Positions 1,511-20,100 of a stretch of DNA of 23,405 bases are shown here, piece by piece (position 1 is the first letter of the stretch; each line of letters opens with the position of its first letter). Where the stretch lies: positions 1 through 23,405 of IMG/VR virus record IMGVR_UViG_3300009185_001112; one strand, written 5' to 3'. The DNA is from a virus. The translations under genes and the position numbers were made by a program. Below the pieces are notes generated by a model. That model worked only from the letters and a program-made list of their open reading frames with translations. It was not told where the DNA came from and searched no databases.

Positions 1511-2026
1511 TTACTCGCCCCATGGATTGCCAAGGGCAGCGATGTCCTTAACAATCTCATTGGCACTTCTCTTCCCTGCCGCAGTCGGTGAAGACTTGGC
1601 AGGCTTATTTGGATCTACGGACTCATCAGGAGTCTTTCCACCAGCCTTGACCAGGGCCTCAAATTCGCGTGCCCGATCTTCATCGGTAAGCTCCGCAGCC
1701 TTCTCTTGCCACTGGACATAGTTGGGGTAATCCTTAGCGAGACGAGACTTTGTCTCAGCTTCCCTAGTAGAACGTAGTTCCTTTTCCAACGTCTCAATCT
1801 TTCGTTGAGCGCGTTCGAACTCAGTTAGACTGGCCTCTTCCATCTGAAGCTTCCAGGTTTGCACCTTTTCGTATTCAGACTTAAGCTCATCCAACTGCTT
1901 CTTGGTAGATGTCAGAGCTTGGTCCTTACCAGCCAGACGCTTCTTCCAAGTGGTGATATCGTTATCGTCCTGAGTGACAGCTTCCTGCGACTCCTGGGCG
2001 TTTTGATTCACGACTTCGTCGGTCAT
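1511..2026 (-). CDS. Capsid assembly scaffolding protein
   Basis: The 171-residue product is highly charged and mostly helical. Residues about 25-105 have coiled-coil character, rich in Lys, Glu, Gln and Leu and without Cys, which is typical of phage scaffolds. The start is acidic and Gln/Asn-rich, and the C-terminal third has a Pro/Ser/Lys linker followed by a short helix (about 152-165), where many scaffolds bind the coat. It lies directly upstream of the major capsid gene. Its ATG overlaps the stop of the preceding giant gene (ATGA), and GGAGG inside that gene's last codons serves as ribosome binding site. Scaffolds diverge quickly, so the call depends on composition and place. No protease motif is present, so maturation cleavage is not encoded here. 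Confidence 0.8.
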   Translation of the reverse strand: MTDEVVNQNAQESQEAVTQDDNDITTWKKRLAGKDQALTSTKKQLDELKSEYEKVQTWKLQMEEASLTEFERAQRKIETLEKELRSTREAETKSRLAKDYPNYVQWQEKAAELTDEDRAREFEALVKAGGKTPDESVDPNKPAKSSPTAAGKRSANEIVKDIAALGNPWGE

Positions 2027-5000
2027 CTTCGTCCTCCATAAATATCGAAGTTAGGCCCACGAGCGATACCTAAACCGCTGGCAGGATCAACCTCATTCGC
2101 TCCCGATAAATTATCCACGATTTGCTGCGATGCGCCAACTGTGTTGGCCATCACCTTCAATGGACCGTACTGGTCGAGATTGCCCAGAACGTCACGCCCC
2201 ACGAGGTCTGAAAGGATTTGATAATCCTTATCTCTCCCTGAAGCGCTGAGTACAATTGCCCTCGACCATGCAGGCGGGAGGGCTGTGATATCCCACGGAA
2301 CTCCGGGGAACAACTGAGATACCAGGAATGCAACTTGCTCGTTGTCCTGCAACATCTTCCTTAGACCGTAGTCTGTTTCAAGTTCGTTCTCAACGTATTC
2401 CCTGACATGCATATATGCTTGGTACCCGGCGCCGGGGGCCTCTGCGCCAAACGGCCTCTTGAAAAGGAACTCAACCATCTCAGGAAGAATCTTCTTGAAC
2501 ATATAGCTGTATGGATAGAACCCAAGGAATGGGTGGTTTATTGAGCGCTCAAAGAATGAGCGATCTGGGTTTGCGTATGTAGTAATGTTGGCTTGCTTTA
2601 AAGCTTTTTCGTAGCTATACTGAACCCCTCTGTAAACCCTCTCCTCTGTTCCGTGAGTTACAACAAGCTTGTAGCTTGCATCGTCTAGAGCCCTAACAAT
2701 GTCTGGGTTAGATTCAACTGCCTCTCGCGCCATCCTTCGGATCTGCGTTTCGTATTCTCCAAAGTTCCTTAGCGGTGCCTGGACTGAGTCAACAATCCTC
2801 TGAGCGATAGTAGCAATCTCTGCGATCTCCGGTCCATATCCGTGACCTAGAGCAAGAGCTTCAGCGATCCTAGATCCTTCAAAAGAAAGCTTCCCGATCT
2901 TAGACCTTGAGCTACCCATAGCAAGGAGCATCTCATCGATTACTGACTTGCGGTAGTTTGCCATAATTTTGTACTCGTCAATCTTCTTGAAAGAACTCCT
3001 TATGTTCATAAGCTTGGCCCTAAGCTGGGATGGAATCTGGTCAGCCTTCTGGGCAACCCACCCAGGGTGTTTTACCTGTGTGTCTTGGACTGTGTAAAGG
3101 AATCTCTTGAGTCCTTCAAATTCGTTAGCCAAGTTCCCTATGCTCATGTCATATCCTGCGTCGAATAGACGTGAGTGAGTGATATCAATATCATTAATCA
3201 TTGCAGATGGGTTGCTTAGAACTCCGTTAACAAGAACATTCATATCTGCCTGAGCAATCCTTCCAAGCTCAATGTCAAATACCTCACCGAACAGGTCAGC
3301 TTTCGCCTCTGCCATAACCTGTCCGCTTCTGTCAGGCATTACACGCCATCCAAATCCAGCAGGACGAGAAGCCTCGATGTCTGAAAGAACCCTATCCGGA
3401 TCAGACATTCTCCTTCTTGCATCCATTTCTCTTACAAAGATAGTCCTGGAGTCAGATGTTCCGTGGTGCCTGACAAGTGCGTTCCATAGCTCCATGTCGT
3501 TTTCCTGTAGCTCTTTTGCAAAGTTCTTTGATGTAATGTCAAGGGCCAGAGCATCCTTCCTAATCTCCTTACGGAGTACAAGTACATCTCCCGCTTCTCC
3601 CTTAAATGCAGCTCTGCGAAGTGTTTGAGACAGGCTTTGCTCAGACAGCTTCCAGTCACCTGCGACAGCGCTGGATAGAGCTTTCTCCCTGAAGATTGTA
3701 AGGAAACTGACCTGATCGATAAGGCTGTTGGTCTCAGGTCCTACTTTCATTAGGTCCTTGAGCTCAGATGCAGCCACACCAAGAGATCTTCCGTCAGCTC
3801 CTATGGCCCTAACAACTTCCCTGTCTACACCTCGTGCTCCGTTTAGAAAATCCGACTCAACAAACTCCTGGATCCAGTAAAGAGGGTTAGCCTTAAACCT
3901 GTACTTTGGGTAGAAGTTGTCTGTCATAGAAGCCACGCCAGGGACCCATTCTTTTAGCTTTCCTGTTGCCGACTGTGTGAGTCCAACATACTTTGCGTCT
4001 CCCCTGAAAGCGTACATGAGTGCGTCAATTGGGGAAAACTCTGACTTACTTGTAGTTGCATCTCCCCACCTTCTAACAAACTCATCGTATCCAGAGAATC
4101 CGTCCTGGAACTTAAACGCCCTTTCGAAAGCGTCCTTTGCAGCCTTCTTGCCAATGCCCCTTGCGCTAACGCCTTGGGCCATGGCTTCGTACACAATCTC
4201 ATCCATAACCCTGTCTACGTGACCTGAGCTTATCCCGCCCCTGGCAAGAAACGCAGTCATGCGGGTACGGATATTATTATTTATCTGAGATGTAGAGATA
4301 GGGTCAAACATTCTTGACATAAATTCCTGTACCCTATTGGCCTTGTATACACCTGAGAACTGGTCTTGGACTTCGTCGATGTAAGGGCTAGTCATGTCTA
4401 CGTATGGCTTGATAGAATGCTGGTAGATCAACCTCTTGGTAACATCGTCAATGTTAGGGTTCTCTACAATCTTAGATACTGTCTTGTATGGCCTGTTTGG
4501 TGAACGGACAAGAATGTACCTGGATGCGTTTAGTGCGTTCGTTATTGATGGGTCAACACCTGAAGCAGACATTAGCTTGTATACTGCGTTCTTTCCGTAG
4601 TCGTCAAGTGGGCTAGATGCTACTTCGTCAAGACCGTTTTTAATAAATGAATGGATTCTATGTGGGTCAGTAATCCTTCCCATCTGTGCTGCGATAGTTT
4701 CGAACTGCTCTAGCGCTGCATCTGCCCACATCTTTTTAAGCTCTGCAAGGTTAGCTGGCTTATCCTTGCCATTGATTAGCTTGTACAGTTTCTGCAATGC
4801 TTCTTTTGCAAGAGTGTCTCCAGACCCGTCTGCTTTTCTAATAAGATTATTAATCTCTCTTCGCATCATCTGAACGTCTACTTCTGTACCGACATACCTA
4901 GCAACTGCAGGCTCTCCAACAATCTGGCTCTTAACGGCGTCCCTATAGTCTATGCCCCCAGACTCTATGTCCATAATTGCTTCGTATACTTTGTCGTAAG

Positions 5001-7077
5001 CAACTGCAATAGGCCTGAGGAATGAGTTCTTTCTAACTATCTGGACACCATTGTTACCGATGTACCTTGCCGCCTGCTTTAGCTCAGCGTAACCGTCCTC
5101 TCCATGCTGGGCAATCATTTTCTCTACCCACTTAGGATCGGGGCTAGCCTGGAGGAACGGACGAATGGTCTCATTAATCCTAGATGCAATCTTGTTAGAG
5201 CTGGCGTAAGATGCGTAGTCAAGAACAAGAAGCTGTCGAGCAATCTTTTGAATGTTGTCTGTCTTTGCATATCCGGCCTCGTCAAATAGTGACCTAAACA
5301 TAACCTCAAAGCTTTGATCAGCTTGCGCCCTAACAGCATCTGTCCATGGGGTGCTGGTTGCTGCTGAGATGCTCCTGAGTCTGGCCATGTACATTTCTTT
5401 AACCCTAGGCATAGACGTTACATCTACTGCAAGCCTGGTTACAGCTTTTTCAATTTCCTCTGCGGCTAGCTTACCAACTCCCTCTGCGCCGATAGACCTT
5501 ACAATGTCAGCAATTCTAGCCTCTACTCCACCAGGCATCTTAGCAATTTCTGCAAGCTTACCGGCAACGTAAGTGTTTTCAATGTACTCCATGAGCCTAG
5601 CTTTTGAGGGATTTGCAAGCCTGCCCTGAGCAAGCAGTTGGAGCTCATCGGTTTGTGACAAGATCCGAATACGATCCTTTAGTTCTGATACCCCACTTAT
5701 TCCTTCTGACACTCCGTATGTCTTGACCATGCCGCCTGTGTTTGCCTTTGCGTTTTCTGACATGATGTTAGCAATGTTGTCTAGGTTTTGAGGGGTAAAG
5801 ACTCCCGACTTCTTTTCAAGTCCAATCTGGCTAATAGCCTCAAAGTAACCTTTAGTTGTCACCTCTGCTACAGCATCCGCCAGAGCTGTTTCTGGCTTTG
5901 TAACTAGTCTTGCTGTAGCAAATACGGCAGCTTCAGAAGCACCTCGTCCGATCATCTCCTCCACTGTTCCCCTGATATCTTCTGGGAAGATGGCAGAGAT
6001 TGAGTCCTTCATTTGGTTGAAGCGTTCTCCTCCAAGCTGAGACACAATCTTCATTGAGTAAGGGATTGTAAGGGCACCTGCTAGCGCCCTTGCCGAGGAT
6101 GAGGCAGCACCTTTGGCTCCAATGAAGCCGTTGTACAATCCTGTAGAGAAACCGTTTGTAATGCCCTTGCTTGTTTTAATTGCGATCCTAGCGTCCTCAA
6201 TCTCAGACTCAAGATTTTTAATCTTCTGGTCAATGATCGGTGTCTTTGACTCTAGCTTCAAACTTTCGATCTGACTTTCCTTAGATGCAATCAGCTCTAG
6301 GTTCTTTGCCCCGATTGATACCCTGTTCTTCAGGTCGAGGCCGTACCCTGTGCCCTCTTTCCCCTTGTCAAGTGTTTGAACAATCTTCTCTACAGTGCTT
6401 AGCTCAGAGGTATTTTTTCCTGCAATAAGGGCTGCGTCCAAGGACTTGCTGGCCCTACCTGCCATCTTGTACCCGGCAATTCCTCCTGCCACTGCGCCAG
6501 GAAGGCTCCCCACCAATCCTCCTCCAACTGCTCCAGCGGCTGCGGACAGAGGCTTTAGTAGACCTACCTTACCTAGAGCAAGTGGTGTAAAGTTTAGTGG
6601 ATCAAGAAGAATCTGGAAGATAAGGTTCGCTGACTTGTCATTAGAAAATGCTCTCTGAGAGTTTACAAGGTAATCAGCTACTTCACCAACGTCTTGTCCT
6701 GAGTTAAGCATCTTGGCAATATCTGCCGGAAGAGAGGCCCTATCAGTTACTGCTATGCGCAACCTGGCCGCAGCCTGTTGGACCATCCAGCTTGGAACGT
6801 TAAGAGCGTCAAAGGCTTTACCAGCCACAAATCCAATCGGTGATTCTGCTAGACCCTTTGCAACGTCTGAAATAAGCGGCAGCTTTGTTGCTAAGTTGAT
6901 GCCGGTCCCAATAGTCTCAGTGACCGCAGAGCCTAGGTCCCTGGCTAGTCTCTCGTCTGGCCTAAGGTCTTTTACCCTCTGGTCTCCACCAATGTCAATG
7001 TTTAGGGCAAGGTCCTTACTCTTAAGCTCGTCGAGTTCAGGAACCGAAGGAGAAGAGCTACTATAAATCTGAGGCAC
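2023..7077 (-). CDS. Giant virion-type protein (1684 aa), probable internal or ejection protein
   Basis: I do not recognise a named family. The start is GTG, overlapping the preceding stop (TAGTG), with GGGGAG about 7 bases upstream. The product is almost entirely helical. Visible parts are a Ser/Pro-rich start, a glycine-rich hydrophobic stretch (178-208, repeated AG, GGG and VAGG steps), a predicted coiled coil (about 257-303), and a long Ala-rich helical body. A distinctive aromatic block near the C-terminus contains H-P-F-L-G-F-Y-P-Y-S-Y-M-F, followed by E-M-V-E-F-L-F. The last residues are FDIYGGRR, closely matching the end of the other giant protein here. I found no Walker, HExxH or lysozyme motif. 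Size, glycine-zipper segment and place between portal and scaffold suggest a protein packed in the head and ejected with DNA. Arginine is mostly AGG or AGA. A structural but non-ejected role remains possible. Confidence 0.6.
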   Translation of the reverse strand: MPQIYSSSSPSVPELDELKSKDLALNIDIGGDQRVKDLRPDERLARDLGSAVTETIGTGINLATKLPLISDVAKGLAESPIGFVAGKAFDALNVPSWMVQQAAARLRIAVTDRASLPADIAKMLNSGQDVGEVADYLVNSQRAFSNDKSANLIFQILLDPLNFTPLALGKVGLLKPLSAAAGAVGGGLVGSLPGAVAGGIAGYKMAGRASKSLDAALIAGKNTSELSTVEKIVQTLDKGKEGTGYGLDLKNRVSIGAKNLELIASKESQIESLKLESKTPIIDQKIKNLESEIEDARIAIKTSKGITNGFSTGLYNGFIGAKGAASSSARALAGALTIPYSMKIVSQLGGERFNQMKDSISAIFPEDIRGTVEEMIGRGASEAAVFATARLVTKPETALADAVAEVTTKGYFEAISQIGLEKKSGVFTPQNLDNIANIMSENAKANTGGMVKTYGVSEGISGVSELKDRIRILSQTDELQLLAQGRLANPSKARLMEYIENTYVAGKLAEIAKMPGGVEARIADIVRSIGAEGVGKLAAEEIEKAVTRLAVDVTSMPRVKEMYMARLRSISAATSTPWTDAVRAQADQSFEVMFRSLFDEAGYAKTDNIQKIARQLLVLDYASYASSNKIASRINETIRPFLQASPDPKWVEKMIAQHGEDGYAELKQAARYIGNNGVQIVRKNSFLRPIAVAYDKVYEAIMDIESGGIDYRDAVKSQIVGEPAVARYVGTEVDVQMMRREINNLIRKADGSGDTLAKEALQKLYKLINGKDKPANLAELKKMWADAALEQFETIAAQMGRITDPHRIHSFIKNGLDEVASSPLDDYGKNAVYKLMSASGVDPSITNALNASRYILVRSPNRPYKTVSKIVENPNIDDVTKRLIYQHSIKPYVDMTSPYIDEVQDQFSGVYKANRVQEFMSRMFDPISTSQINNNIRTRMTAFLARGGISSGHVDRVMDEIVYEAMAQGVSARGIGKKAAKDAFERAFKFQDGFSGYDEFVRRWGDATTSKSEFSPIDALMYAFRGDAKYVGLTQSATGKLKEWVPGVASMTDNFYPKYRFKANPLYWIQEFVESDFLNGARGVDREVVRAIGADGRSLGVAASELKDLMKVGPETNSLIDQVSFLTIFREKALSSAVAGDWKLSEQSLSQTLRRAAFKGEAGDVLVLRKEIRKDALALDITSKNFAKELQENDMELWNALVRHHGTSDSRTIFVREMDARRRMSDPDRVLSDIEASRPAGFGWRVMPDRSGQVMAEAKADLFGEVFDIELGRIAQADMNVLVNGVLSNPSAMINDIDITHSRLFDAGYDMSIGNLANEFEGLKRFLYTVQDTQVKHPGWVAQKADQIPSQLRAKLMNIRSSFKKIDEYKIMANYRKSVIDEMLLAMGSSRSKIGKLSFEGSRIAEALALGHGYGPEIAEIATIAQRIVDSVQAPLRNFGEYETQIRRMAREAVESNPDIVRALDDASYKLVVTHGTEERVYRGVQYSYEKALKQANITTYANPDRSFFERSINHPFLGFYPYSYMFKKILPEMVEFLFKRPFGAEAPGAGYQAYMHVREYVENELETDYGLRKMLQDNEQVAFLVSQLFPGVPWDITALPPAWSRAIVLSASGRDKDYQILSDLVGRDVLGNLDQYGPLKVMANTVGASQQIVDNLSGANEVDPASGLGIARGPNFDIYGGRR
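2033..2046 (-). promoter_or_regulatory. GATATTTATGGAGG translation-start element for the scaffold gene
   Basis: The minus strand reads GATATTTATGGAGG ending 7 bases before the scaffold ATG. The GGAGG is the Shine-Dalgarno site, and the AU-rich GATATTTA just upstream could act as an enhancer for ribosomal protein S1. It is also coding, giving D-I-Y-G near the end of the giant protein. The same GATATTTA-x-GGAG arrangement precedes two other starts in the window (near 17129 and 16694). Confidence 0.5.
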
Positions 7078-9902
7078 TAATTAACTCCCCTTGTATAATT
7101 AAACCCACTTGTAGCAGTTGATGAATTCCCGGCAACAGTCGTCTTAGTAGGTGCTGTAGTCCCAGTCTTAGGTGGGACGTAAGACCCAACCAGAGGCTTA
7201 GTCGTAGCAATGCTTATTGGCTTAACCTGAGGGACCGCTTTTGCATTTACTTGTGGAGCCTTTGCCGGAATTGCAGGGGCCATCCCAGGCCTGTTCCTAA
7301 ACGCCTCACCAAGGAATGGGGAGTAAGGTGAAGCTACACCAGAGTTAGCTGTTGGAAGTGGAGAACCCTTAGTTACCTGTGTGCCCGGTGGCGCGTAGAA
7401 TCCACCACCCCCTAGCCCAAATCCTGCGCCTGTAGACTGGACTCCGCTGTTAACTACACCAGTCAATGGCATTGATGTTCCAAGTGTTGGGAATGCTGAC
7501 CTGATTTGAGCTAGCAAGTTAGTGTCCTTAGCAAGAGCATCTCTTACAGCAGTGTAAGAGTTGTTCAAAGCAATTCCAGGTACTGATTGGATGGCAGCGT
7601 CGACGTAGTCGTCAATGTCTGGAACTGACTTACCCTTGGACACTGCAATGTTATTTGCAAACGTTTGGATCTGTGTCCTGTTAACAAGAGATGCGCCTGC
7701 CGCTGAGGATAGCTCGTTGTTAGTGTTCAGCGATCCTGTAAAGAAATACGTCTTTCCAAATTCAGATGGTGCAACCTTAGATCTAACTCCACCGATTCCA
7801 ACAGTTTCTAGATTCCCGATATGGTACTCACTATTTGGGTTAGTAAACACGTTGTTCCAGAAGTCAGCCTTATTAGATCCTATAGTCTGAGTGTCGAACT
7901 CAAGGGTGATGTTCTTCGGTACGTTTCCGTCTTTGCTAAACATATTTGCTTCGTTAAGGCTAAGGCCAGCGTATTCTGCTGCCTTGCTAAAAATTGCATA
8001 GGGCACGATTACAGATGTAGTTGGAAGAGTGTTTCCTCCTGCGTCCTTCATGGGTCCTGTAATTTTAATTAGAGACTGTCCATACCCGAAATCGCCAGGC
8101 CGGCCATAGTTCCCCTGTTGCCTGTAAACCTGTACTGTTAGTCCGTTAAACAGCCCTGCGTCCGCATCGGTTTGCCCATCCGGCATTTTGATGGTGGACG
8201 GCACAACGTATGCAATAGTCTTTTCGCCATTGTAATCGATTACTGTTGGCAAAGCGTCCTGGGATACTTCCTTAATTCCCCAGGCCGTGATCGTTGTGAA
8301 TCCGTTTTCTCCAACTACAGCTACTGACCCAGCTTTCATAGCTGCCTTACCCCACTGGGCGTCTACCCATGCATTCGCAACGGCAGCAGCATTGATTTGA
8401 GAGTTAGGGATAAATGCCATAGAAAGGTTGTTCATAGTCTTAACCATTAGGTCTTGTACCTGGTTTACTTGGAACAATCCGCTAGAGAATCCTGTTTGCA
8501 TTTCAGCTCCGGTAACGTATCCGTCGCCAGAGGTGTCAAACTTTTTGAACTCATCTGGCAGAAGGGATGACTCAATCCTGTCGCTACCAAAGTCAGTTAG
8601 CCATTTAAACTCAGACGAGGCAGAGCTTCCGCCAATACTCTTTCCGTAATCTGTTAATGCAGCTGAGATAGCAGATGGATGTCCACCAAGGATTGTTACT
8701 CTTCCATCAGCAGTCGTTGTGAACTGAGCACCTGCGTTTGATAGAGACGTGCTGAAGTTTGTGGCAGCGTCCCTAGCAGATGAGGTGCTAAAACCAATGC
8801 CGCTGTTAGCAACAAAGAATACTCCATTTCCTCGAGCGGTTAGCGACGTGCTTAGAAGGTCAGCCCTTTGGGCGTCTGATACTCCCTTGAACCCCCCATC
8901 AAGAAGCCTTGCAAATTCCTCGTTTGAGTCACCTACTGCCTCAGCGAAAAGGGCAGACATAGCATCTCCGCCTCCAACAGCCATGATCGAATCGTAGAAA
9001 CCACCGATCATTTCGTTGTTCTTGTTCTCTGCTAGATACTGCAGCATGGAATAGTATGGAGTGGTAGTCGATCCGATGTTGTCCCAAAGGCCCTCAACCT
9101 GAGGTCGGACAGCTGGATTTTGCTCAAAGAACTTTTCAAGGATAGCCTTTGCGGCCTTGTCCGGTCCTTTTAGGATGTTGTGGATTGATTTCTGGTACTT
9201 CTCATACGTGCTGTTCTGCCCCTCTGTCTGAGCTTGCTTATTGACTTGGGATTGCTGAAGAACGATAGACCTGTACACTTCGCTGTTCTTTCCGTACCCT
9301 GCCTCAGAGGCAGCCTCTAGCTGCTTACCAAGCCAGTTGCTCCAGGAAGCATAGCTGAGATCTCCATTATTAACAGCTGCCTCCTTGCCGTCATTCTCTG
9401 CGTTAAACCCTGCAACAAAGATAGCTCCCTTGAGTTTGTCGGCTTGAGTAACGTCCCCATCGGCTAGTAGCTGGCTTACCTGTTGATCACCCCAGTTGCG
9501 CACGTCAGACAAGGTAACCTCGTCAATGCCCTTGTTTTCAAAGTTAGACCCAAGAAGGCCAAAGTCAATCTTTGTCCCTTTGTTCATTGAGTCAATTACA
9601 AGGTTCTGAATGTCAGTCTGGTACTGCTGCCTAAAGGACTCCAGCTTAGACTTGATCGTCTCGTACTCAGTGCTTCCGGCTGGAAATCCTGCCATCATAG
9701 ATTCGTAATAAGAGATTACAAAATCTCCGTCAACGTTTTGACCATTGAACTGAGACTCATACATTCCAGCTGTCATGTTGGTTTTGTACGCAGTTAAAAT
9801 TGAATCAAGTTCGTCAGTCATTTGCTGCTTCATGAGCTGGTAAACAAGCATCGTTAAATTCTGGCTGGTTCCAGATCGACCGAAACTACCTCGTCGTGCC
9901 AT
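7077..9902 (-). CDS. Large virion-type protein (941 aa) with an EF-hand-like calcium loop
   Basis: This is an unrecognised family. The ATG lies three bases after the portal stop, with GGAG about 8 bases upstream. Residues 1-260 are helical and Gln/Met/Lys-rich. The middle holds a complete EF-hand-type loop at residues 456-467 (D456, S458, D460, Y462, T464 and E467 at the six ligand positions), preceded by a helix ending in E-F-K-K-F. Residues about 520-790 look beta-rich, and the C-terminus (about 825-941) is a low-complexity Pro/Thr/Gly/Ala tail. No signal peptide or catalytic motif is visible. Its place between portal and a giant protein suggests a virion component, perhaps an internal or neck protein. 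One loop alone does not prove calcium binding. Arginine is mostly AGG, as in the two giant genes. Confidence 0.6.
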   Translation of the reverse strand: MARRGSFGRSGTSQNLTMLVYQLMKQQMTDELDSILTAYKTNMTAGMYESQFNGQNVDGDFVISYYESMMAGFPAGSTEYETIKSKLESFRQQYQTDIQNLVIDSMNKGTKIDFGLLGSNFENKGIDEVTLSDVRNWGDQQVSQLLADGDVTQADKLKGAIFVAGFNAENDGKEAAVNNGDLSYASWSNWLGKQLEAASEAGYGKNSEVYRSIVLQQSQVNKQAQTEGQNSTYEKYQKSIHNILKGPDKAAKAILEKFFEQNPAVRPQVEGLWDNIGSTTTPYYSMLQYLAENKNNEMIGGFYDSIMAVGGGDAMSALFAEAVGDSNEEFARLLDGGFKGVSDAQRADLLSTSLTARGNGVFFVANSGIGFSTSSARDAATNFSTSLSNAGAQFTTTADGRVTILGGHPSAISAALTDYGKSIGGSSASSEFKWLTDFGSDRIESSLLPDEFKKFDTSGDGYVTGAEMQTGFSSGLFQVNQVQDLMVKTMNNLSMAFIPNSQINAAAVANAWVDAQWGKAAMKAGSVAVVGENGFTTITAWGIKEVSQDALPTVIDYNGEKTIAYVVPSTIKMPDGQTDADAGLFNGLTVQVYRQQGNYGRPGDFGYGQSLIKITGPMKDAGGNTLPTTSVIVPYAIFSKAAEYAGLSLNEANMFSKDGNVPKNITLEFDTQTIGSNKADFWNNVFTNPNSEYHIGNLETVGIGGVRSKVAPSEFGKTYFFTGSLNTNNELSSAAGASLVNRTQIQTFANNIAVSKGKSVPDIDDYVDAAIQSVPGIALNNSYTAVRDALAKDTNLLAQIRSAFPTLGTSMPLTGVVNSGVQSTGAGFGLGGGGFYAPPGTQVTKGSPLPTANSGVASPYSPFLGEAFRNRPGMAPAIPAKAPQVNAKAVPQVKPISIATTKPLVGSYVPPKTGTTAPTKTTVAGNSSTATSGFNYTRGVN

Positions 9903-9905
9903 TTT

Positions 9906-12272
9906 CTATTCTCCTTGCTGAGGGACGCCGCCCTGTGCTGACTGCAACATTGACATCAGGTCTGCTCCGCCGCCCTGTGCGTTTTGAGGAAGAGACTCTT
10001 GCGGAGGGACTGCTCCCTCAGTAGGGCTGTTAAGCATCTCTAGGCCTCCCTGAGGCGGGTTAAGGCTTGCCATGGCCTCCATAGCGCTAGCCTGCCCGGC
10101 TGATGCCTGCTGCTGTGCGGCCTGCGGTGGCTGCTGCTGCATCTGAGCAAACATCTGGATCAATGCGCCCATTGTTTGCACCGCTGCAGGATTTAGCGTG
10201 GCGTCTGTCTGCTCATCTCGCATGAGGTCCTTCTCGCCCTCTGGGTCTGTTACTCCCATTCGGTCCATAGCTCGCTCAGCTGACCAGAGCCTGTTCTGCA
10301 CTAGGTTGATAGCAGTCTGCGCAAGCTCAATCGTATCTCGAGGAGTCAGCTCAGGAGGGGTAATAGCAATAGTGTATTCACCGTCAATAATATTCTCAAC
10401 TGCCTTATCCTTATTCTCCCAAATCCTGGCGCATACCTCCCAAACATTCTGAACCCAGCTGTAAAGAAGTTTACGCTTAGGACTGATCCTAGCTTCGTAG
10501 TTCGCCATGAGCTGAGCAATTGCCCGGCTAGACCCAAGAACGGTAGATGGAGCAAGTCCAAGTAGAAGGTCGTTAAGACCGGACACTACTGCGAGCTCGC
10601 GGTCAATGCGCTTGTTGTAGTCCTCTACCTGGAACTGTGGGATAAACGGATTGATTGACTCAATACGGTTCCCTGCCCCAGGAGTTGCAACCTGATTAGG
10701 CTTTGGAATTGCATTGGCAGGGACCTCGTCAGGGGCTTCCGCACCCACAAGCTGCCACATCTGTCCACCAACTACAGAGTGAATCATCTGAGCTTGGGCT
10801 GTGATCTTTTCGTCCTTCTCTCGAAGTAGCTGCTCAATGTCGTATAGCTCTGGCTTGCCGTATGGGCTTCCAGGGATCATGCTGTTGCGAAGGATGATGT
10901 ATGGGATTACGCCTTCCATCTCAGGGTGCTCAGTCTTCTTGACAACGGTGTTGCCAACGATGATGGCATTGCAGACAAGAGCCGGCTTACCTGGCTGTGT
11001 AGGGTGCTTGTACCAGTAGTCCATAACCTCGATCTTCATTTGGTCATATGCTGTCTGATACCGCACAGGGTCTCTGTGATAACTGTTCAGGTAAATGCTA
11101 GCAATCGGATCATCGTGCGTGCTAGCTGAAGTGTAAGGATACCACTTGCTCCCATCGTTTACAGGGATAACGTTGATTCCATAGTCCTCAATAGCAACTT
11201 GAGGAGAAACTCCGTAGCTGTACAGAGCCCAATCGATCCGGCTGTAGTCTGAAGTTCCGTATCCAAGGTATAGGTTTTCTGGTGTGTCAACAATCTGAAC
11301 CCTTGGCATTTTTCGAACAGGGTCCCAGTATACTTTTGCCGCAGTAGTTCCGTACAGTGCCTTTAGAAGTGTTGCCTCTTCAAGCCTAAGGTCAAAGTCA
11401 TTGTTGTCCCACCAGGCGTAAAACAATCTCTCTCGTCGAGTAGCTTGCTTTCGCTCTTCTTCAGTAGGCCCTGTCGGTGTATAATTGACAATAGGAGTTA
11501 CAGCCTGAAGGGACGCCGGAATGCTCACATAGGACGAGTGCACATTTACAGATACGTGAGACCTGCCTGACAGGCGAGCGCTTGGGTCTTCTGCCCAGTG
11601 GTCTGCCCCCCCAAGGGTGAAGGTCTGTGGGTGAAAGTAGTGGTCGTATCGTCGATATAGGGCACGCATTCGGTTCTGCTCAGGCTCTACCATCTGCTTT
11701 TTTACAATGGCGTCACCGATAATCCCAAAGTATTCGTTCTCTTCAGCAACCTGGCCAATGGCGTTAAGTCGCTGCTTCTCCATGCTGAGAGCTTTCTTCT
11801 GTGCATCTGTAAGGTTTGACATCTTAGAGTAGTCGGCGGAGATCTTCTTTACGGCAATCTTTCCACCTGATATGATCATATCCGCTACAGTCTTAATGCC
11901 CTTTCCTGCAGGCATAGCCTTACGATTCCTGTTGGCACTTTGTCGAGGTGGTCTCTTCTTGGCAGCAGAGATGGTTGGCTTCTCTCCGCCAAGTGCCTTC
12001 CTTGCAGCTACGGCAGATGCCTTGATAGCAGCAATTGCAGCGTCAGGGGCGTCAGTGTTAGCAGGGGAGATGCTAGCTACTACGTTTCCACCGTTCTGGT
12101 TAAGCTTAGACGGCTTGCCCTTCATGGCCTGTCGCGCCTTCTCAAAGTTGGCGCCGATGTCCCTGATTGTGCTGGCTGGTGCTACAGCCGGGTCGTCAGT
12201 GTACAGGGAAGGCTGCGGCTTCCCATTGACGAATGAGCCTGGTAGCTTCCTAAGTCCCTTGCCTTTTGCCAT
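9906..12272 (-). CDS. Portal protein with long basic N-terminal extension (788 aa)
   Basis: The portal forms the dodecameric ring at the capsid vertex through which DNA is packaged. The family core seems to begin near residue 195 (R-A-L-Y-R-R-Y-D), continues through an alpha/beta wing region (about 290-480), the clip and stem helices, and the conserved S-S-R-A-I-A-Q-L-M-A-N-Y-E helix. Two parts are unusual. The first 190 or so residues are Lys/Arg/Ala-rich and look largely disordered. The last 90 are Gln/Pro/Ala/Met-rich. The ATG overlaps the terminase stop (TAATG), with GGGGAG inside the terminase gene about 13 bases upstream, so the two genes are translationally coupled. Portal identity is well supported by the core and by adjacency to the large terminase; the tails are unexplained. 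Confidence 0.87.
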   Translation of the reverse strand: MAKGKGLRKLPGSFVNGKPQPSLYTDDPAVAPASTIRDIGANFEKARQAMKGKPSKLNQNGGNVVASISPANTDAPDAAIAAIKASAVAARKALGGEKPTISAAKKRPPRQSANRNRKAMPAGKGIKTVADMIISGGKIAVKKISADYSKMSNLTDAQKKALSMEKQRLNAIGQVAEENEYFGIIGDAIVKKQMVEPEQNRMRALYRRYDHYFHPQTFTLGGADHWAEDPSARLSGRSHVSVNVHSSYVSIPASLQAVTPIVNYTPTGPTEEERKQATRRERLFYAWWDNNDFDLRLEEATLLKALYGTTAAKVYWDPVRKMPRVQIVDTPENLYLGYGTSDYSRIDWALYSYGVSPQVAIEDYGINVIPVNDGSKWYPYTSASTHDDPIASIYLNSYHRDPVRYQTAYDQMKIEVMDYWYKHPTQPGKPALVCNAIIVGNTVVKKTEHPEMEGVIPYIILRNSMIPGSPYGKPELYDIEQLLREKDEKITAQAQMIHSVVGGQMWQLVGAEAPDEVPANAIPKPNQVATPGAGNRIESINPFIPQFQVEDYNKRIDRELAVVSGLNDLLLGLAPSTVLGSSRAIAQLMANYEARISPKRKLLYSWVQNVWEVCARIWENKDKAVENIIDGEYTIAITPPELTPRDTIELAQTAINLVQNRLWSAERAMDRMGVTDPEGEKDLMRDEQTDATLNPAAVQTMGALIQMFAQMQQQPPQAAQQQASAGQASAMEAMASLNPPQGGLEMLNSPTEGAVPPQESLPQNAQGGGADLMSMLQSAQGGVPQQGE

Positions 12273-13771
12273 TATGATACATACTCCCCAAAGTAGCTAA
12301 ACACAGGCTTCTCAACCGGGTTGGAAGGATTGCGCGTAGCGTGCCTGACCGAGAGGGCAAGTGCCATCACGGCGTCTGTTGAAAGATTCTTGTCAGCAAG
12401 CTTGTATCCAAGTAGCTGTCGTCGAAGTTCCATCCATACACCTGTACGAGGAAGCTTAAGTTGACCACGGTCAATGACAGCCTTAAGGTCACCAAGTAGC
12501 TCTAGCTTCTTTGCCTTAGTACCGCCGAAGTCGTAGTCTCGTAGTGGCTTGATGATGCTAAACTCCTGTCGAAACAGCTTGCCACCGAAGCCAGTTGAGT
12601 CAACGATAGTTGTGCACGTTGCCCCATCCTGTGTGTATAGCAGGTGTCCCTCTCGCACCATGTTGATGACTGCGGGGATAGTCTGCTTTCCAATCTTGCG
12701 TCGGCATCGAACCCCTACCATCATCTGTCGATCAGTGTAATCAATAGTTACTGCCCAGGTTGCATCAGAGGAAATACCTGGGTCTACTCCCTGTGCGTAT
12801 CGTCGCTTTGCGGTAGGGGGCTGCTCGTCTTCAAACTCTACAAAGCATCCATCAACCATCTCAGCGTTGAAGTATGCATCTCGTGCCTCGATGAAGAAAC
12901 CATCAATGTTCTGCGGCACCAGGTACTCAGCCTGCTGGCGAACGATTGATTCAAAGGTTTGCGAGTTTAGTCCAAACCCTACGTTGTCGCGGGTAGATAG
13001 TCGGAAGCTCATAAACTGATCGTCCTTGTTTGGGTTCTTAGGATTGCCAAGCTCCCATAGGTCTGCGTAGTCGTTGATTCCTTCTGTAGGTGTGCCAATG
13101 AAGTGCAGCTGTCCACCGGTGGATAGGCGGCGCAGGTTGAGAACTTCCTGATAGATCATCAGAAGGTGAGGCTCAAACGCGGCTTCGTCAAATGAAATTC
13201 CATTCATGTCCTTTCCAAGCAGGGCCTTAGCCTTGTCCTGGGTTGTGCGGAAGTGGATGTTAGCTCCGCCGAATACAGGGTGGATCTTAATCCACAGGTA
13301 TTCTCCACGGTACTTTTTGTCAAAGATGTACACTGGACCTAGCTCCTTAATAATCGGACATCCCCTACCGCGTTGGGCTGGGTGCGAGCCTTGGAAAACC
13401 ATAGAAAGCTCACGATGCACCAACTCAGCAGTCTCCTGCTGGATGCCGATGTGGTACCACTCATAGGGCTCCGTAGTCCAACGCTCAGCGTCGGCCTGGT
13501 TGTTCAGTTCCGATGGGCGAAGCCCTAGCTTGTATGTGGCAGAGTGCAGGATGCCCACAGCCATTCCAAGCGTCTTACCCGCTCGATTGCCAGCGGAGCA
13601 GACAGTGGTCAGGTACTTGGGCCTGTACCCTGTCTCATCCCTGGCTGACATCCCCTGGAGCCAAGCAAGCTGGCCAGGGTTGAGATTGATCCCAAGCCAA
13701 CGAGAGGCGAAGAAACCGATGTCGGCTCTGCCTCTGGCTAGATCTTGAGCAATCTCAGTAGTAAGATTCAT
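12272..13771 (-). CDS. Terminase large subunit (ATPase and nuclease)
   Basis: This 499-residue protein is the packaging motor, which translocates DNA into the prohead through the portal and cuts the concatemer. The ATPase domain has Walker A at 59-67 (S-A-G-N-R-A-G-K-T), Walker B with catalytic acid at 192-196 (I-S-F-D-E) and coupling motif G-T-P-T at 226-229. The RNase H-like nuclease domain has the expected acidic residues: D330 (G-V-D-P-G), D391 (I-V-D-S-T-G) and D466 (S-T-D-A-V-M-A). All key residues are present and the length is normal. The ATG overlaps the upstream gene's stop (ATGA), with AAGGAA just before it. The arginine codons I read are largely CGA and CGT, unlike those of the giant genes. 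Confidence 0.95.
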   Translation of the reverse strand: MNLTTEIAQDLARGRADIGFFASRWLGINLNPGQLAWLQGMSARDETGYRPKYLTTVCSAGNRAGKTLGMAVGILHSATYKLGLRPSELNNQADAERWTTEPYEWYHIGIQQETAELVHRELSMVFQGSHPAQRGRGCPIIKELGPVYIFDKKYRGEYLWIKIHPVFGGANIHFRTTQDKAKALLGKDMNGISFDEAAFEPHLLMIYQEVLNLRRLSTGGQLHFIGTPTEGINDYADLWELGNPKNPNKDDQFMSFRLSTRDNVGFGLNSQTFESIVRQQAEYLVPQNIDGFFIEARDAYFNAEMVDGCFVEFEDEQPPTAKRRYAQGVDPGISSDATWAVTIDYTDRQMMVGVRCRRKIGKQTIPAVINMVREGHLLYTQDGATCTTIVDSTGFGGKLFRQEFSIIKPLRDYDFGGTKAKKLELLGDLKAVIDRGQLKLPRTGVWMELRRQLLGYKLADKNLSTDAVMALALSVRHATRNPSNPVEKPVFSYFGEYVS

Positions 13772-14094: not shown

Positions 14095-14260
14095 CCTTAG
14101 GACCCTTCTTGAATCGGGCTGCCATGGCCTTCTCGCTCTTCTCGCCCTTCTTGCCTTCCTTCTTTTCGTGCTTGTTCTTAGCGGCCTTGCTCTTGTACTT
14201 CTCTACCTTGTTTCCATACTTCTCTAGAAGGAAAGCTGGCATCTTCTTCTTGCCGGGCAT
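14048..14260 (-). CDS. Small lysine-rich basic protein (70 aa)
   Basis: Twenty of 70 residues are lysine and four are arginine, against six glutamates. A short hydrophobic start (M-P-A-F-L-L-E-K-Y-G) precedes a charged stretch of K-K-E-G-K-K-G-E-K type (about 28-44) and a Gly/Lys/Arg tail. It resembles small nucleic-acid-binding or DNA-condensing proteins in composition; I recognise no family. The ATG overlaps the upstream stop (TAATG), and no clear Shine-Dalgarno is visible, so translation probably depends on coupling. The neighbours on both sides are also strongly basic. Reality as a gene is supported by the junctions and by the absence of any other coding frame covering this stretch. Confidence 0.65.
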   Translation of the reverse strand: MPGKKKMPAFLLEKYGNKVEKYKSKAAKNKHEKKEGKKGEKSEKAMAARFKKGPKGGKTLRGNRSTAQRG

Positions 14261-14748: not shown

Positions 14749-14965
14749 CTTCATCTTCTCCCTTGTGCCCGAACGCTTTATCGTTTGGATTGAGCCAGCG
14801 GATAACCACTGGCAGAATTGCAGCTAAGCCGGCTGCTACGACTGACTTAACGGTATTAGCGTCAGAGTCAAATGCGCTGCCCCCAAGCGCAATCCATTGC
14901 GCCAGGCATGCAGCCAAGAATGAGCGTCCCCATGACGCCAGCGTGGACTTAAGCTCCTTGCTCAT
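14735..14965 (-). CDS. Holin candidate, two transmembrane segments (76 aa)
   Basis: This small protein has two hydrophobic stretches, about residues 12-30 (S-W-G-R-S-F-L-A-A-C-L-A-Q-W) and 40-58 (S-V-V-A-A-G-L-A-A-I-L-P-V-V-I-R-W), joined by a short polar turn and followed by a charged tail. The second segment with its L-N-P-N-D-K-A-F-G ending resembles phage holins that I recall from late operons. Holins form lesions in the inner membrane and time lysis. The start is clear: GGAGG lies six bases before the ATG and overlaps the end of the preceding gene. No endolysin is present in the window, so the lysis role is not confirmed by context. Another small membrane protein is the alternative. Confidence 0.65.
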   Translation of the reverse strand: MSKELKSTLASWGRSFLAACLAQWIALGGSAFDSDANTVKSVVAAGLAAILPVVIRWLNPNDKAFGHKGEDEDANS

Positions 14966-15410
14966 CCATGACCTCCATTGCTGTACCTTCTACCAAATAT
15001 CCGCCACCTAGGATTCCAGCCATCGAGATGGCCAGTTCACGGTCAGCGTTCTTTTCCTTACGTCGGTCAATCATTTCCTGAGCCCTGAGGCCCTCAGAGA
15101 GAGTTGGGATTACGTCCCCATTCTCGACCATCTTATAAACATATGTGCTAACCAGGCGAGCCAAATCCCCATTTGTAGTCTCAACCCTGATAGCGCTCTG
15201 GATGTTCTTAGTAAGCTCCTGTCGTGCCTTAACGTGCTCAACTGTCATGTGCTGCCTGCGGTGATTTCCTAGAGTAATGCGGCTAATGTAGCTGCTCTCA
15301 GCCTTAAGCCAGTCAGACACCTTCTGGTCAGAGATACCCTCTGTCATCTTACGGTTGATTACATCAACCATTGGATGTGCGCATACTGCGCACTTACTCA
15401 GGATTTTCAA
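14949..15410 (-). CDS. Probable terminase small subunit with CCHH zinc motif
   Basis: Small terminase subunits recognise phage DNA and load the large subunit. From the proposed TTG start (15410) the protein is about 153 residues. A C-A-V-C-A-H-P motif near the N-terminus and H-R-R-Q-H some 40 residues later give a Cys2-His2 set around a helix-turn-helix-like segment (G-I-S-D-Q-K-V-S-D-W-L). This arrangement recurs in small DNA-binding or terminase proteins of phages. A helical C-terminal half follows. No ATG precedes the cysteines. The frame stays open to a TTG at 15488, but that start would overlap a better-supported 47-residue gene by 95 bases. The stop is at 14949-14951. The identity rests on motif and place; the start is uncertain. 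Confidence 0.6.
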   Translation of the reverse strand: MKILSKCAVCAHPMVDVINRKMTEGISDQKVSDWLKAESSYISRITLGNHRRQHMTVEHVKARQELTKNIQSAIRVETTNGDLARLVSTYVYKMVENGDVIPTLSEGLRAQEMIDRRKEKNADRELAISMAGILGGGYLVEGTAMEVMDEQGA

Positions 15411-15537
15411 CTTCTGGCTCTGGATCAGGGTATCGCTCGTTCTTGCCGATGACCTTCCCAGTCTCAGCGTCTCGCACGATCTCCACAAGCATCCCAGTCT
15501 CTGGGTCTAGGTAGGCTGGTTCAGTGATGACTGCCAT
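15394..15537 (-). CDS. Small acidic protein (47 aa)
   Basis: A 47-codon frame begins with an ATG overlapping the fibre gene stop (TAATG), with GGAGG seven bases upstream, one of the best ribosome sites in the window. The product (M-A-V-I-T-E-P-A-Y-L-D-P-E-T-G, later P-D-P-E-P-E-V-E-N-P-E) is strongly acidic and Pro-rich at its end. No membrane segment, cysteine or known domain is visible. Its last 17 bases overlap the proposed small terminase start, so it may couple translation of that gene. I do not recognise a family. The coupled start and strong ribosome site make it a credible real gene despite its size. Confidence 0.7.
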   Translation of the reverse strand: MAVITEPAYLDPETGMLVEIVRDAETGKVIGKNERYPDPEPEVENPE

Positions 15538-16694
15538 TATGATACCTCCGCATAGAAAGCAGAGATTGTACTATTTAGCGCCCCACGATCAACTGATGCT
15601 GTTAGGTCTGATTGTGTTAATACTACATAATATGGATAGCCAGTTGCGTTTACAGCAGCGGTTGCTGCCCTGGCTGCAGACGATAAAACAGTTCCCATAT
15701 TAGTTCCAACTGCTATAACTGCAATAAAGTATTCAGATCCAGCGGTGAGTGTGTATGTTGCTGGGTATCCACCAGTTGTATCAAGTGCCCGTGTATATTT
15801 AGTGTTTGCTGTAGAAAAAATTGATGTGTCTGAGGCAGTTCTAGCAACCAATGTGAAGGTTGATCCGCTTCGTGTGTAGATTCCAAAACGACAAAGTGTA
15901 AGTGCAGAAAAAGCGTTGCTAGAACCCTGGAATGCTATATTGGTGACAGTAAAATTCTTATGTGGTGCAAGTAAACTCCAGTATATAGTCCCAGAAGCAA
16001 ATGATGCACTGGATGTCGTGAGGAGCCATCTTGGAGTTGTTGCAATAACACTAGACGATTGATACAGAAGATATGAGAGTGCGTCAGCCTGAACTGCCGT
16101 ATCAGCCTTAGCCTGTGCTGTAGCGGCATTGGTGACCCCTGTTGATCCTCGGTCATAGGCTGACTTCACCGCCGTTGGGGTGGCGGCAAGGATGCTGCTC
16201 GTGACATTGGTGGCGTCACTGAGTTGAACTGTACCAGCAGCACTTGTAGAAGCGGAAGATACTGAGACTGTAGCAGTTCCACTTACAGTTGAAACAGAGA
16301 TTGGACCTGTTCCACCCACGGCAGAGACGCCACTTGACTGGGCAACCCAGGAAAGGCCTGTGGCTGCTGTGCTGTCAGCTGATAGCACGTGTCCATTTGT
16401 AGCTGATACAGCAAGACGTGAGACAGTGTCGGCTGCTGTGCCAACGATAAGATCTCCCTTTGCGTCCACAATGGTCTTAGACACCTTGTCTGCCTCAAGA
16501 TCAGTAACACGGCCTCGCAGGGTAGATCCCTCATCCGTGTCAAGCCATACGATAGTAGGCTCAACTGTACCAATGTCCTGATTAAACTCCTCATAGAACT
16601 CGTCTGGAATCTCGAACACGGTGTTTGCCGGACCCTCAAGGAGTAGTCCGTTCCAGCGAAGCGAAATTGGGCGTCCAAAGCGTAGTCTAGCCAT
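15537..16694 (-). CDS. Tail-fibre-type protein, probable receptor-binding protein
   Basis: The 385-residue protein has an N-terminal domain (1-70) with a hydrophobic beta start. Next comes K-G-D-L-I-V-G-T-A-A-D-T-V-S-R-L (79-94), then N-G-H-V-L-S-A-D-S-T-A-A-T-G-L-S-W (100-116), a module common in phage fibres. A Ser/Thr/Val-rich stretch leads to A-A-G-T-V-Q-L-S-D-A-T-N (152-163) and A-A-T-P-T-A-V-K-S-A-Y-D (170-181), the Phage_fiber_2 repeat. After a short helical linker, residues about 215-385 are beta-rich and would be the tip that binds the host surface. The start has AAGGAG four bases before the ATG. A 39-base gap precedes it, the larger of the two gaps upstream of its start in this operon, and holds promoter-like sequence. 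The tip domain carries no recognisable specificity. Confidence 0.82.
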   Translation of the reverse strand: MARLRFGRPISLRWNGLLLEGPANTVFEIPDEFYEEFNQDIGTVEPTIVWLDTDEGSTLRGRVTDLEADKVSKTIVDAKGDLIVGTAADTVSRLAVSATNGHVLSADSTAATGLSWVAQSSGVSAVGGTGPISVSTVSGTATVSVSSASTSAAGTVQLSDATNVTSSILAATPTAVKSAYDRGSTGVTNAATAQAKADTAVQADALSYLLYQSSSVIATTPRWLLTTSSASFASGTIYWSLLAPHKNFTVTNIAFQGSSNAFSALTLCRFGIYTRSGSTFTLVARTASDTSIFSTANTKYTRALDTTGGYPATYTLTAGSEYFIAVIAVGTNMGTVLSSAARAATAAVNATGYPYYVVLTQSDLTASVDRGALNSTISAFYAEVS

Positions 16695-16698
16695 AGTT

Positions 16699-16712
16699 CT
16701 CCTTTAAATATC
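16699..16712 (-). promoter_or_regulatory. GATATTTAAAGGAG translation-start element for the fibre gene
   Basis: The minus strand reads GATATTTAAAGGAG four bases before the fibre ATG. GGAG is the Shine-Dalgarno site and GATATTTA is an AU-rich leader. Unlike the other two copies in the window, this one is not within a coding region, so its resemblance cannot be due to protein sequence. Confidence 0.45.
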
Positions 16713-16737
16713 CCTCATATATATCCACTTTTGTCAA
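16707..16737 (-). promoter_or_regulatory. Possible sigma70-type promoter for the fibre-to-terminase genes
   Basis: On the minus strand a perfect TTGACA (16737-16732, overlapping the stop of the upstream gene) is followed after 19 bases by GATATT (16712-16707), a 4/6 match to TATAAT. The gap is AT-rich (GGATATATATGAGG). The spacing is longer than the usual 16-18, and the -10 overlaps the leader of the fibre ribosome site, leaving almost no 5' untranslated region. It is the best promoter candidate I see but could be chance. Confidence 0.3.
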
Positions 16738-17129
16738 GTGTTAACCTCATCGATAGGTGGAAGCAGCCTAGATACAGGGGTAGATAGGGCATCTGCCGCA
16801 CGTTCTACCTCCACATTGAAGACATTGGAGATGATCTCGTACCCCTCCCGGCCCAGCACCCCCTCAAGTGACTCGATTGCCCTTTCAGCCCCAGCATAGT
16901 GGACGTGAAGTAGCTCATGGGCGATCACACGGCGCTTCTCAGTGTTGTCAAGGGTCCAGAACTCAGAGGAGACACGTAGCGTGGCGGTCCAAAGGTTGTC
17001 GCTTACCTCGATATCAGCCCAACTGTCCTCCTCGCAGGGGTGCTTAGACACCTCTACCTTCCAATGGGCAAGCCCAAGGATGGTAGCTGCCCTGTTTACG
17101 TAGTCCTGTAGCTCTGAAATGCTTCTCAT
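16734..17129 (-). CDS. Zincin-type metallopeptidase (HELLH), 131 aa
   Basis: The HExxH motif reads H-E-L-L-H at residues 71-75 within V-I-A-H-E-L-L-H-V-H-Y, with H71 and H75 as zinc ligands and E72 as the general base. A likely third ligand is E109 in V-E-R-A-A-D-A-L. The N-terminal half (residues 10-60) is a small alpha/beta domain. The length fits compact phage and mobile-element metallopeptidases of the SprT/ImmA-like shape, though I cannot place it in one family. The ATG follows the giant gene's stop directly (TAG then ATG), with GGAG and AGAGGG inside that gene's last codons. The close link to a giant virion gene suggests the substrate may be a virion protein, but this is inference. The gene ends in TGA inside a TTGACA sequence. 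Confidence 0.75.
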   Translation of the reverse strand: MRSISELQDYVNRAATILGLAHWKVEVSKHPCEEDSWADIEVSDNLWTATLRVSSEFWTLDNTEKRRVIAHELLHVHYAGAERAIESLEGVLGREGYEIISNVFNVEVERAADALSTPVSRLLPPIDEVNT

Positions 17130-20100
17130 CTATACCCTCTCTCCATAAATATCAAATAAGTCCTTCTCTGGCTTGTATTCTGCTGGCTGTTGGCTATCCG
17201 GAGTCGAAGTTGCTACGTTTGCAGGCATCTGCTGCATACCATTGTTCCCGGTAATGGCAGAGTACAGGGTATCGGTGGCAACCGACCCAGCATTACTGCC
17301 AACAAAGGCTCCTGCTCCTGCAACAAATGGGTTTCCAGTCAATGCGCCAGCTGCCCCACCAATAATACCTCCACCGAGTGACCCAAACAGGTTTACCATA
17401 GCCCTGAGCATGTCGCCACGGTTCATTGCTACCCAGCCTAGGTTTGCCACGGCACCTGCGGTGTTATTAACAGCCCCAATAGCCTCAAGCGCAACTGACG
17501 GTGCAAGGTTAGCCTGTGTGATCTCGTCACCCTGGTCTCCAAACTGGATCCTATTTGTGATAGCATTAGATGCGAGTCCAAGACCAATCCCTACTGCGCC
17601 TGCCCCAAGAGTCATCTTGCCGATATTCCCCTGTCGCTGAATTGCCCTAATCCTACGGAAAAGCGCTACATCGTCCTTTGTGTAGTTTGTCCTTTTTTCG
17701 TCAACAGTCCTATAGTTAACTGGAAGTTTTCTACCATCTCTTGTAGGAACAGTGTTCAGGCCAATAGATTGACCACCCTCAATTGCTGAGTCCAGCATAG
17801 GGTCAACAAATTCTTGCGTCCTCTCTACGCCGGTAGCTTCCCTCCCCAGGGCAGTGATACCGGTAGGAGTCATCCTGTCAAGTGAGGCATCCTCAACCAT
17901 AATATCTGATATCTGCTGTCGGGCGGCTTCCTGTACGGCGTCTATTGTATCGAGGATTTTTCTTACTTCAGGAGTTTCAAATTTGCTCCTATCCATCTCA
18001 GGCCCTTGAAGAAGATCCCCATTATACCTAGGTGACTTATTTTCTTTATCGTATGTCTTCAATTCAGCCTGTAGCTTTTCAATAATCCTGGTAGCTCGCT
18101 CTCTGACTTTCCTGATCCTGAAATTCTTAATAGCGCCTAAGTCTTCGTACTCTCCGGCCTTCCGCGTCAGCCTACCAAGAGGTCCGGTAATTTGCATTAC
18201 CCTACCCTTAGCTACACTGTCGTCTTTATCTGCACGAATAACTTCAATTACCTTGTCGGCCTGACCCTCAGGTGAAATTTCGTAATCATCGTACGGCATT
18301 TCAACGCCCTGGGAAGCTAGGAACCTTTTGATTTTTCCAAGTTGTGAGATTCTAAATCCTACGTCTACAGCATAGGAAAGAACACTTTCCTTTATAGAGT
18401 CTTTCCTGTCTCTAAATCCATTAGCTCTACCAATAATTGTTGCAAATTTAGACATCATTCCAGGAGAAATATCTACGGTATACGGTTTGTCATAGCCCTC
18501 TCTTGTGTCTCCTAATAGAGTTGTCAAACCTGTATCGTTAATCTCTTCAACAGGTTCAATTGACATAGTTCTATCTGCTCCAAACTTGGAAAAGGCTTCA
18601 AGAGCCTTAGTAAGCCCTACACCACCACTCCTAGATGTTTTAATTTTTGCATCGAAATGAACCTTTTTAACCCTGCCTGTCCTTTTATCTACATCTGCTT
18701 TGGCAAGGAAAATAACTTTCTTATCCTGATCGAACACTAAAGTTAGCCTGGTTGTTTTCATTAGCTCTTGCAAAACCTGAGACTCCATGACATGTGGAGT
18801 TTCTGCAATTAATTGAACTAGCTCCGGCTCGCTAATCTCCCTAAGTCCCCTTCCACGAACTGCAGGCATTCTGATAACACCAGTTTGGTCTAGGAACATC
18901 TGGTTATTAACAATAAGCTGTCCGCCATTTTCATTAAACCCATCTTGAATTGTGCTGAGAATCTTATCCATGTTAATGACATCACGGATGATAGAAACAT
19001 AGCCGTCTCCGTCTAGGTCTCCGGCAAGGTGCCTTGCGTTTGCCTCAAGCGCCATCTCGATAGCGGCTTTCCTGTCTTCTGGGCTAAGCTTTCCTAGCTT
19101 AGAAACAGCCATCTTGATCATCTTTTCTGCGTCAGGGCTAGTTGTCTTAAGCTTTCCCCTGACGCTAGTAGGAAGAACAAGCTCTCCGATGTTGTCTTGT
19201 GCAAACTTCCTAACCAGGTTATTTAGAACCTCAACAGTGTTCCTGTAGTCACTCTTTATAACATATTTTTCCCATGACGCCTGAAGTGACTTCTCAACGT
19301 CAGACCCACTGCCCCTTTGCCATTCATCTTTAAGCATACCTCGTCTGCCGGTAACTAATGCCCACTCATCAGGAAAGGCTGGAAGACTCCTGCCTTCAGC
19401 ATCAAGATCTTGAAGAACAAATTCATCGGCCCCCATAAAATCAGCAAACGACTCTGGGCCCACCCTAAGCATCTCGACTAGCATGGCCCTTTGCTTGGTG
19501 TCTTCTACGTTGTCAAAAACAAACTTAATCATCTTGGAGGCAGTTTTACTTCCGCTGTCAGTTAGTGACCCAATGGCGCCAGACACAGACCTGGTCTCTG
19601 CAGCGGAATCAGCGACGTCTGGAGCATCCACTCCGATATCAGCCGCCGCCGTACCTAGCTCTGCTGTCTTTGCCGCGCTTTGAGCAACGTATCCCTCAAA
19701 TGAAATTGGAGCTTGATCAGACAACCTAACCCCTGCGTCTAGATCTGCAATCGCCTGGTATAGTTCCTGTGCGGCTTCTGCAACCTGCTCGTCTCCTGGT
19801 GCCGGGTTGATCTGGACATACCTGGTGTTTCCATATTTGCCTTCGCTAGAAATAACTACCTTAGGGTCATACTCCACAAGCATTGGAGTCCAGTACCTTC
19901 GGTCAGGACCTAGATAGTCAAACGCGGGCACGACGTCCTTTCGGATAAGTGAGTCTAACTCTGCTGCTTCAAGTCCGCTATTTACTAGGAACTCTCGAAT
20001 CTTTACAGTTTTAATAGAGGATTCTTTAATACCGGTAAGGTCTCGGTTTGCCTTGGCCTGGTCTGGGCTAATGTTTTCTCCAGTGGTTGTTATCATCGCA

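Follow-up and report, generated by a model that had tools for sequence, protein, structure and literature searches.

Why should two giant proteins of one phage, otherwise dissimilar, end in almost the same peptide? The window analyzed here, a stretch of 23,405 bp, is the complete IMG/VR record IMGVR_UViG_3300009185_001112 of an uncultivated phage (Table 1). As read in the initial annotation, its 1684-aa protein ends in FDIYGGRR and a giant of at least 2091 residues ends in FDIYGERV (ORFs ending at 2023 and 17130, respectively, both on the minus strand). The giant is in fact longer: contig L004 overlaps the window end (23283-23405) by 123 bp at 100% identity, and its positions 7064-8575 supply the N-terminal 463 residues, bringing the joined protein to about 2554 aa (504 + 2091 - 41). 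On the minus strand, the gene for the giant is followed by the 131-aa HExxH gene, a tail-fibre-like gene, small genes, and the genes for the large terminase and the portal, and then by those for the 941-aa protein, the 1684-aa protein, the 171-aa probable scaffold, the major capsid protein, and a further structural protein. The same order is found in a longer relative, G004 (L117-L119), where replication genes flank the module. G004 also has a distal-tail (Dit)-like gene (L118, 16149-17000) after its capsid gene, and no tape-measure gene was recognized in the module.

Table 1. Features of the window relevant to the two C-terminal tails
Position	Strand	Feature	Remarks
491..1495	-	Major capsid protein	PHROG 1357, 1.5e-38
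1511..2026	-	171-aa probable scaffold gene; its ribosome site overlaps the tag	Role suggested by its location ahead of the capsid gene; without PHROG match
2023..7077	-	1684-aa protein, GTG start, hypervariable	Flanked by the 941-aa and probable scaffold genes
2026..2049	-	C-terminal FDIYGGRR of the 1684-aa protein	GG after the FDIY core is Shine-Dalgarno-encoded
2033..2037	-	GGAGG, ribosome site of the probable scaffold gene	6 nt before ATG (2026-2024); in-frame Gly-Gly
7077..9902	-	941-aa protein	Between the portal and the 1684-aa protein; without FDIY tail
9906..12272	-	Portal protein, candidate docking partner	PHROG portal, 3.6e-08
12272..13771	-	Large terminase, C-end FSYFGEYVS	9e-16
16734..17129	-	131-aa HExxH (HELLH) metallopeptidase-like gene after the giant	Weak M78/IrrE match, E=0.023, below the Pfam cut-off
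17130..23405	-	Giant, 2091 aa inside the window	Gly-rich segment close to the C-terminus
17133..17156	-	C-terminal FDIYGERV of the giant	After KPEKDL
17136..17144	-	GGAGAGAGG, ribosome site of the 131-aa gene	In-frame G-E-R

The tail of the 1684-aa protein is written TTC GAT ATT TAT GGA GGA CGA AGA (2049-2026) and that of the giant TTT GAT ATT TAT GGA GAG AGG GTA (17156-17133). The codons indeed differ at F (TTC versus TTT) and at the seventh residue, R (CGA versus AGG), as had been pointed out, and D, I, Y, and G are encoded identically. The two tails share an exact 13-bp repeat, GATATTTATGGAG, and TTYGATATTTATGGAG is present twice in the record. Since ten pairs of identical 13-mers were observed on the strand against five expected after shuffling, this repeat is unremarkable as DNA. 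The claim that the two chains have no other similarity is borne out in that none was found, apart from Gly/Ala-rich segments that both contain.

The residues trailing the core result from in-frame translation of the Shine-Dalgarno sequence that belongs to the downstream gene. The stop codon of the 1684-aa gene overlaps the start of the scaffold gene (ATGA), and the GGAGG before this start is read as Gly-Gly; in the giant gene, GAGG located 6 nt before the ATG of the 131-aa gene (17129) encodes part of Glu-Arg. FDIY itself starts at distances of 23 and 27 nt from the two downstream start codons. The ribosome site lies inside the ORF in nearly all members of the giant family, most of which end in GG. 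In the 1684 family, a trailing GG is seen where the site is inside the ORF and is missing where the stop codon comes first. Such relatives separate true terminal motifs from ribosome-site artefacts. In four of them (L030, L031, L052, and L064) FDI[YD] is kept with the stop codon preceding the site, and their core is therefore not ribosome-site DNA. The core codons of relatives also differ from those of the window at synonymous sites (GAC ATC TAC versus GAT ATT TAT). Hence the core persists without an embedded ribosome site, and the possibility raised initially, that the peptide is conserved only where such a site overlaps it, does not hold for these four loci. The exact DNA word was retrieved from seven viral contigs; in each it falls within a longer reading frame, never at the end of a gene. 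Because of a superfluous final G in the pattern, this search did not cover the 1684-type junction. Candidate sigma-70 promoters and terminators showed no excess over the shuffled level.

The distribution of the core was traced in relatives of the two families. The portal query yielded 23 loci, and profile scans yielded 46 loci of the 1684 family and 20 of the giant family; two further family scans of viral contigs added nothing new except fragments. When both giants and the portal served as queries, isolate phage genomes yielded nothing, and no relative was found in bacterial genomes either. The core can be written as [DE]KDxF[DNS][IV][YF]. Among 43 complete C-ends of the 1684 family, there are ten F[DN]I variants (FDIYGGRR of the window, DKDYFDIY in five cases, RDYFDID, PNYFDID, KDYFNIGG, and PDFDIGG), six FEKYGGNR tails, and 27 unrelated ones. 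The core carriers of the giant family are the window protein (EKDLFDIYGERV), L079 (DKDPFSIYRNGG), and L081, L087, and L088 ([KE]DPFNVFKGLGG); most tails of this family are without the core, ending for instance in LERMGG, LESLGG, KILGG, KIFGG, MLEGI, or GGFGG. The alignment of last residues proposed at the outset thus gives a divided answer: in each family most homologues are without the tag, but one branch per family keeps the core. The tag is lineage-limited and patchily kept. Within the FDI branch (seven sequences), F and I are invariant, and the linker columns -5 to -11 show a pairwise identity of only 5-29%.

The resemblance between the families was evaluated with matrices built from one family and scored on the other. 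A matrix of six 1684-family tails from other contigs, containing neither the window tail nor any giant tail, was scored on 302,535 distinct 8-mers outside the 1684 family; EKDLFDIY of the window giant ranked first and DKDPFSIY of the L079 giant third, both located four residues from the C-end. Reciprocally, with a matrix of giant tails excluding the window, the 1684-family peptides DKDYFDIY and DKDYFNIG scored highest among 458,866 8-mers. The regular expression [DE][KR]D.F[DNS][IV][YF], which was written after the tails had been seen and is therefore descriptive, has six sites in all ORFs, all of them 0-5 residues from the C-end of proteins of the 1684 and giant families. In a control with random common positions, the tail similarity of the two families was reached in five of 1000 draws, and in 20 of 1000 when the window was omitted. 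We consider it likely that a peptide motif is common to both families. Comparison of the sequences also supports peptide-level selection on the core in one branch of each family and its sharing across families. The selection on the peptide suspected in the initial annotation would accordingly concern FDIY, together with the preceding DKD in relatives, which are conserved where the DNA and the position of the ribosome site differ; it does not extend to the trailing GG or GE and R, which come from that site.

Do both proteins of one virus carry the core? G025 and G014 are contigs of one virus, with an end-to-end overlap of 5,968 bp at 100%, and its tails are KSDKDYFDIY and EEKDPFNVFKGLGG. The closely related G022 and G008 come from a single sample; their overlap is 127 bp at 100%, and they have the same two tails. 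The core is therefore seen on both proteins in two lineages, namely the window and the near-identical pair G025/G014 and G022/G008. Three lineages (G005, G023/G019, whose overlap is 99.99% identical, and G001) carry the core or its FEKY variant on the 1684-family protein only; ten contigs have it on neither protein, and a core confined to the giant was not seen. The co-occurrence gives p = 0.036 in Fisher's test when all viruses are counted and p = 0.22 when near-identical ones are collapsed; the latter, non-significant value is what weighs most against a common-docking reading. Docking to the portal or scaffold is further weakened, as most homologues are without the tag and three lineages carry the core on one protein only.

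The 1684-aa protein has no named domain match in Pfam, PHROG, or NCBIfam, and scans of the giant against the same three collections revealed no named domain; a weak tail-lysin match in the C-terminal part of the giant is the sole PHROG signal for either protein. A search of PDB sequences gave nothing useful. The predicted model for the last 800 residues of the 1684-aa protein is all-helical with a disordered end (pLDDT 62, low confidence). Foldseek gave a single significant match for it, weak and of low TM-score, to an uncultured phage's large polyvalent protein; a fold search of PDB with the same model gave weak helical matches at most. The predicted model of the N-terminal part of the giant (pLDDT 35) is unusable. 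By eye, the stretch VVGVIGTAGRR...VVSGGAAWADHVAVRLYL in this part (from L004) is Rossmann/SLOG-like, with no database match.

The 1684-family proteins are about 28-50% identical between phages whose terminases are 85-98% identical. For instance, between the window and G057 (L012) the terminase is 98% identical and the 1684-family protein 29%, an indication of mosaicism; the giants thus change far faster than the packaging genes, and the 1684-family protein appears to be a fast-changing module. The genes of both proteins sit in the head module, near the portal, scaffold, and capsid genes, as is the case for ejection and internal proteins. The Gly-rich segments of both chains and the predicted disorder of the tail also speak for a cargo role. 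Given this position and the weak structural match to a polyvalent protein, as well as their size, our best guess is that both are packaged and injected, or otherwise internal, virion proteins.

We tentatively favor, with somewhat less than even confidence, a two-layer tag in which an in-frame Shine-Dalgarno sequence adjoins a selected core that acts as a docking label, loading both proteins into the procapsid. The outer GG, GE, and R are the ribosome site of the next gene read in frame, and the core is probably a short linear peptide motif that ends a disordered, fast-changing linker and is selected as a peptide in one branch per family. The 1684-aa protein and the giant would be internal virion proteins delivered with the DNA; their exposed F-x-I-Y end could bind a single partner for both (the scaffold, the portal, or the interior of the shell), by which they would be loaded into the procapsid. 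In other lineages of the phage group, different tails or a different region of the protein would serve instead. A bolder form of this proposal, which we regard as possible but doubtful, is a C-terminal cargo code, in which F-x-[IV]-[YF] after [DE]KD would load two unrelated giant injected proteins into the head of a tailed phage, be exchanged or kept independently of its carriers, and be compatible with an embedded ribosome site. If true, it would offer a transferable tag by which proteins can be loaded into phage heads, and a way of recognizing injected proteins of uncultivated phages by sequence. To our knowledge, the sorting of giant internal proteins into phage heads is known in few systems.

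A rival account, which we judge rather unlikely, is that only ribosome sites are shared: an A/T-rich stretch and GGAG before a start codon would be read as FDIYGG or FDIYGE, and the likeness in relatives would reflect coincidence and descent within families. This would explain why the trailing residues are site DNA in both genes, why nearly all giant-family tails, with the site inside the ORF, end in a GG/GE-like manner, and why D, I, Y, and G share codons; the chance level of 13-mer repeats and the five of 1000 random position pairs that score as high fit it as well. It does not explain why the core is kept with other codons and with the site after the stop, why it reaches upstream to [DE]KD in both families, or why the cross-family matrix ranks the giant tail first, and the unequal distances of the cores from the start codons (23 and 27 nt) imply that they are not placed by the site. 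The ribosome-site alternative of the initial annotation is thus correct for GG or GE and R and is disfavored for the core. Recombination at short repeats could have copied a 3' end between the two genes, in which case the match reflects descent with no common function. This would agree with the strong mosaicism seen against G057 and with the 13-bp identity in the window; yet the flanks of this repeat differ, and in the second lineage the peptides match and the DNA does not (gataaggactacttcgacatctac versus gagaaagatccatttaatgtattc, about half identical), which makes copying quite improbable.

Two further readings accept a functional peptide. In the first, a maturation protease would recognize the core; a candidate is the neighboring 131-aa HExxH protein, whose metallopeptidase-like gene directly follows the giant; peptidase domains have been linked to the processing of polyvalent proteins (PMC5512222). 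We hold this for very improbable, as in L030 and L031 the core ends at the last residue, with nothing beyond it to cut off, and the gene after the giant starts alike where the giant is without the core, too. The C-terminal peptide might instead bind a host protein after injection or shield the end from host proteases. Being terminal, disordered, and lineage-limited, the motif has properties expected of host-adapted contacts, but such a role seems improbable.

Docking as virion cargo is plausible, and several known systems are comparable. T7 gp14-16, P22 gp7/16/20, and N4 vRNAP are ejection proteins of short-tailed phages, and the giants resemble them in being very large and encoded beside portal, scaffold, and capsid genes; no sequence similarity between them was found. 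Large polyvalent proteins, a class described as packaged and injected (PMC5512222), are similar in that the giants lie beside virion genes, change fast, and give a weak structural match to this class; however, polyvalent proteins contain effector domains (MPTase, ART, MTase, and others), whereas here there is no Pfam domain above the cut-off and one Foldseek match from a low-confidence model. In P1 DarB, 30 terminal residues are enough to bring a reporter into the head (PMC9024508). DarB and the T4 internal proteins use a short terminal peptide directing large injected proteins to the head, but these capsid targeting sequences are N-terminal, and a C-terminal label on two unrelated giants, with the motif 0-5 residues from the C-end and a putative loading role, would differ from them. 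In encapsulins, a C-terminal peptide common to unrelated cargo is bound by the HK97-fold shell (PMC8346489). The likeness lies in a C-terminal motif on unrelated proteins after a flexible linker, here hypervariable and predicted to be disordered. Encapsulins are cellular compartments with a SDGSLGIGSLKRS-like consensus (PMC8346489), which is not matched by the core here, KDxFDIY by inspection.

Several minor observations concern the neighboring genes. The 941-aa protein contains a single EF-hand-like loop, DTSGDGYVTGAEM (Pfam E=0.0017, under the curated cut-off). In several relatives of the giant family, a gene with a start similar to that of the 131-aa HExxH gene adjoins the giant. The terminase tail EKPVFSYFGE was considered as a third carrier of the tag and rejected, since its match (p about 0.004 per 8-mer) is within chance. 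At the C-end of the terminase, FSYFGE hardly varies within the group; it overlaps the ribosome site of the portal gene, TTTGGGGAG.
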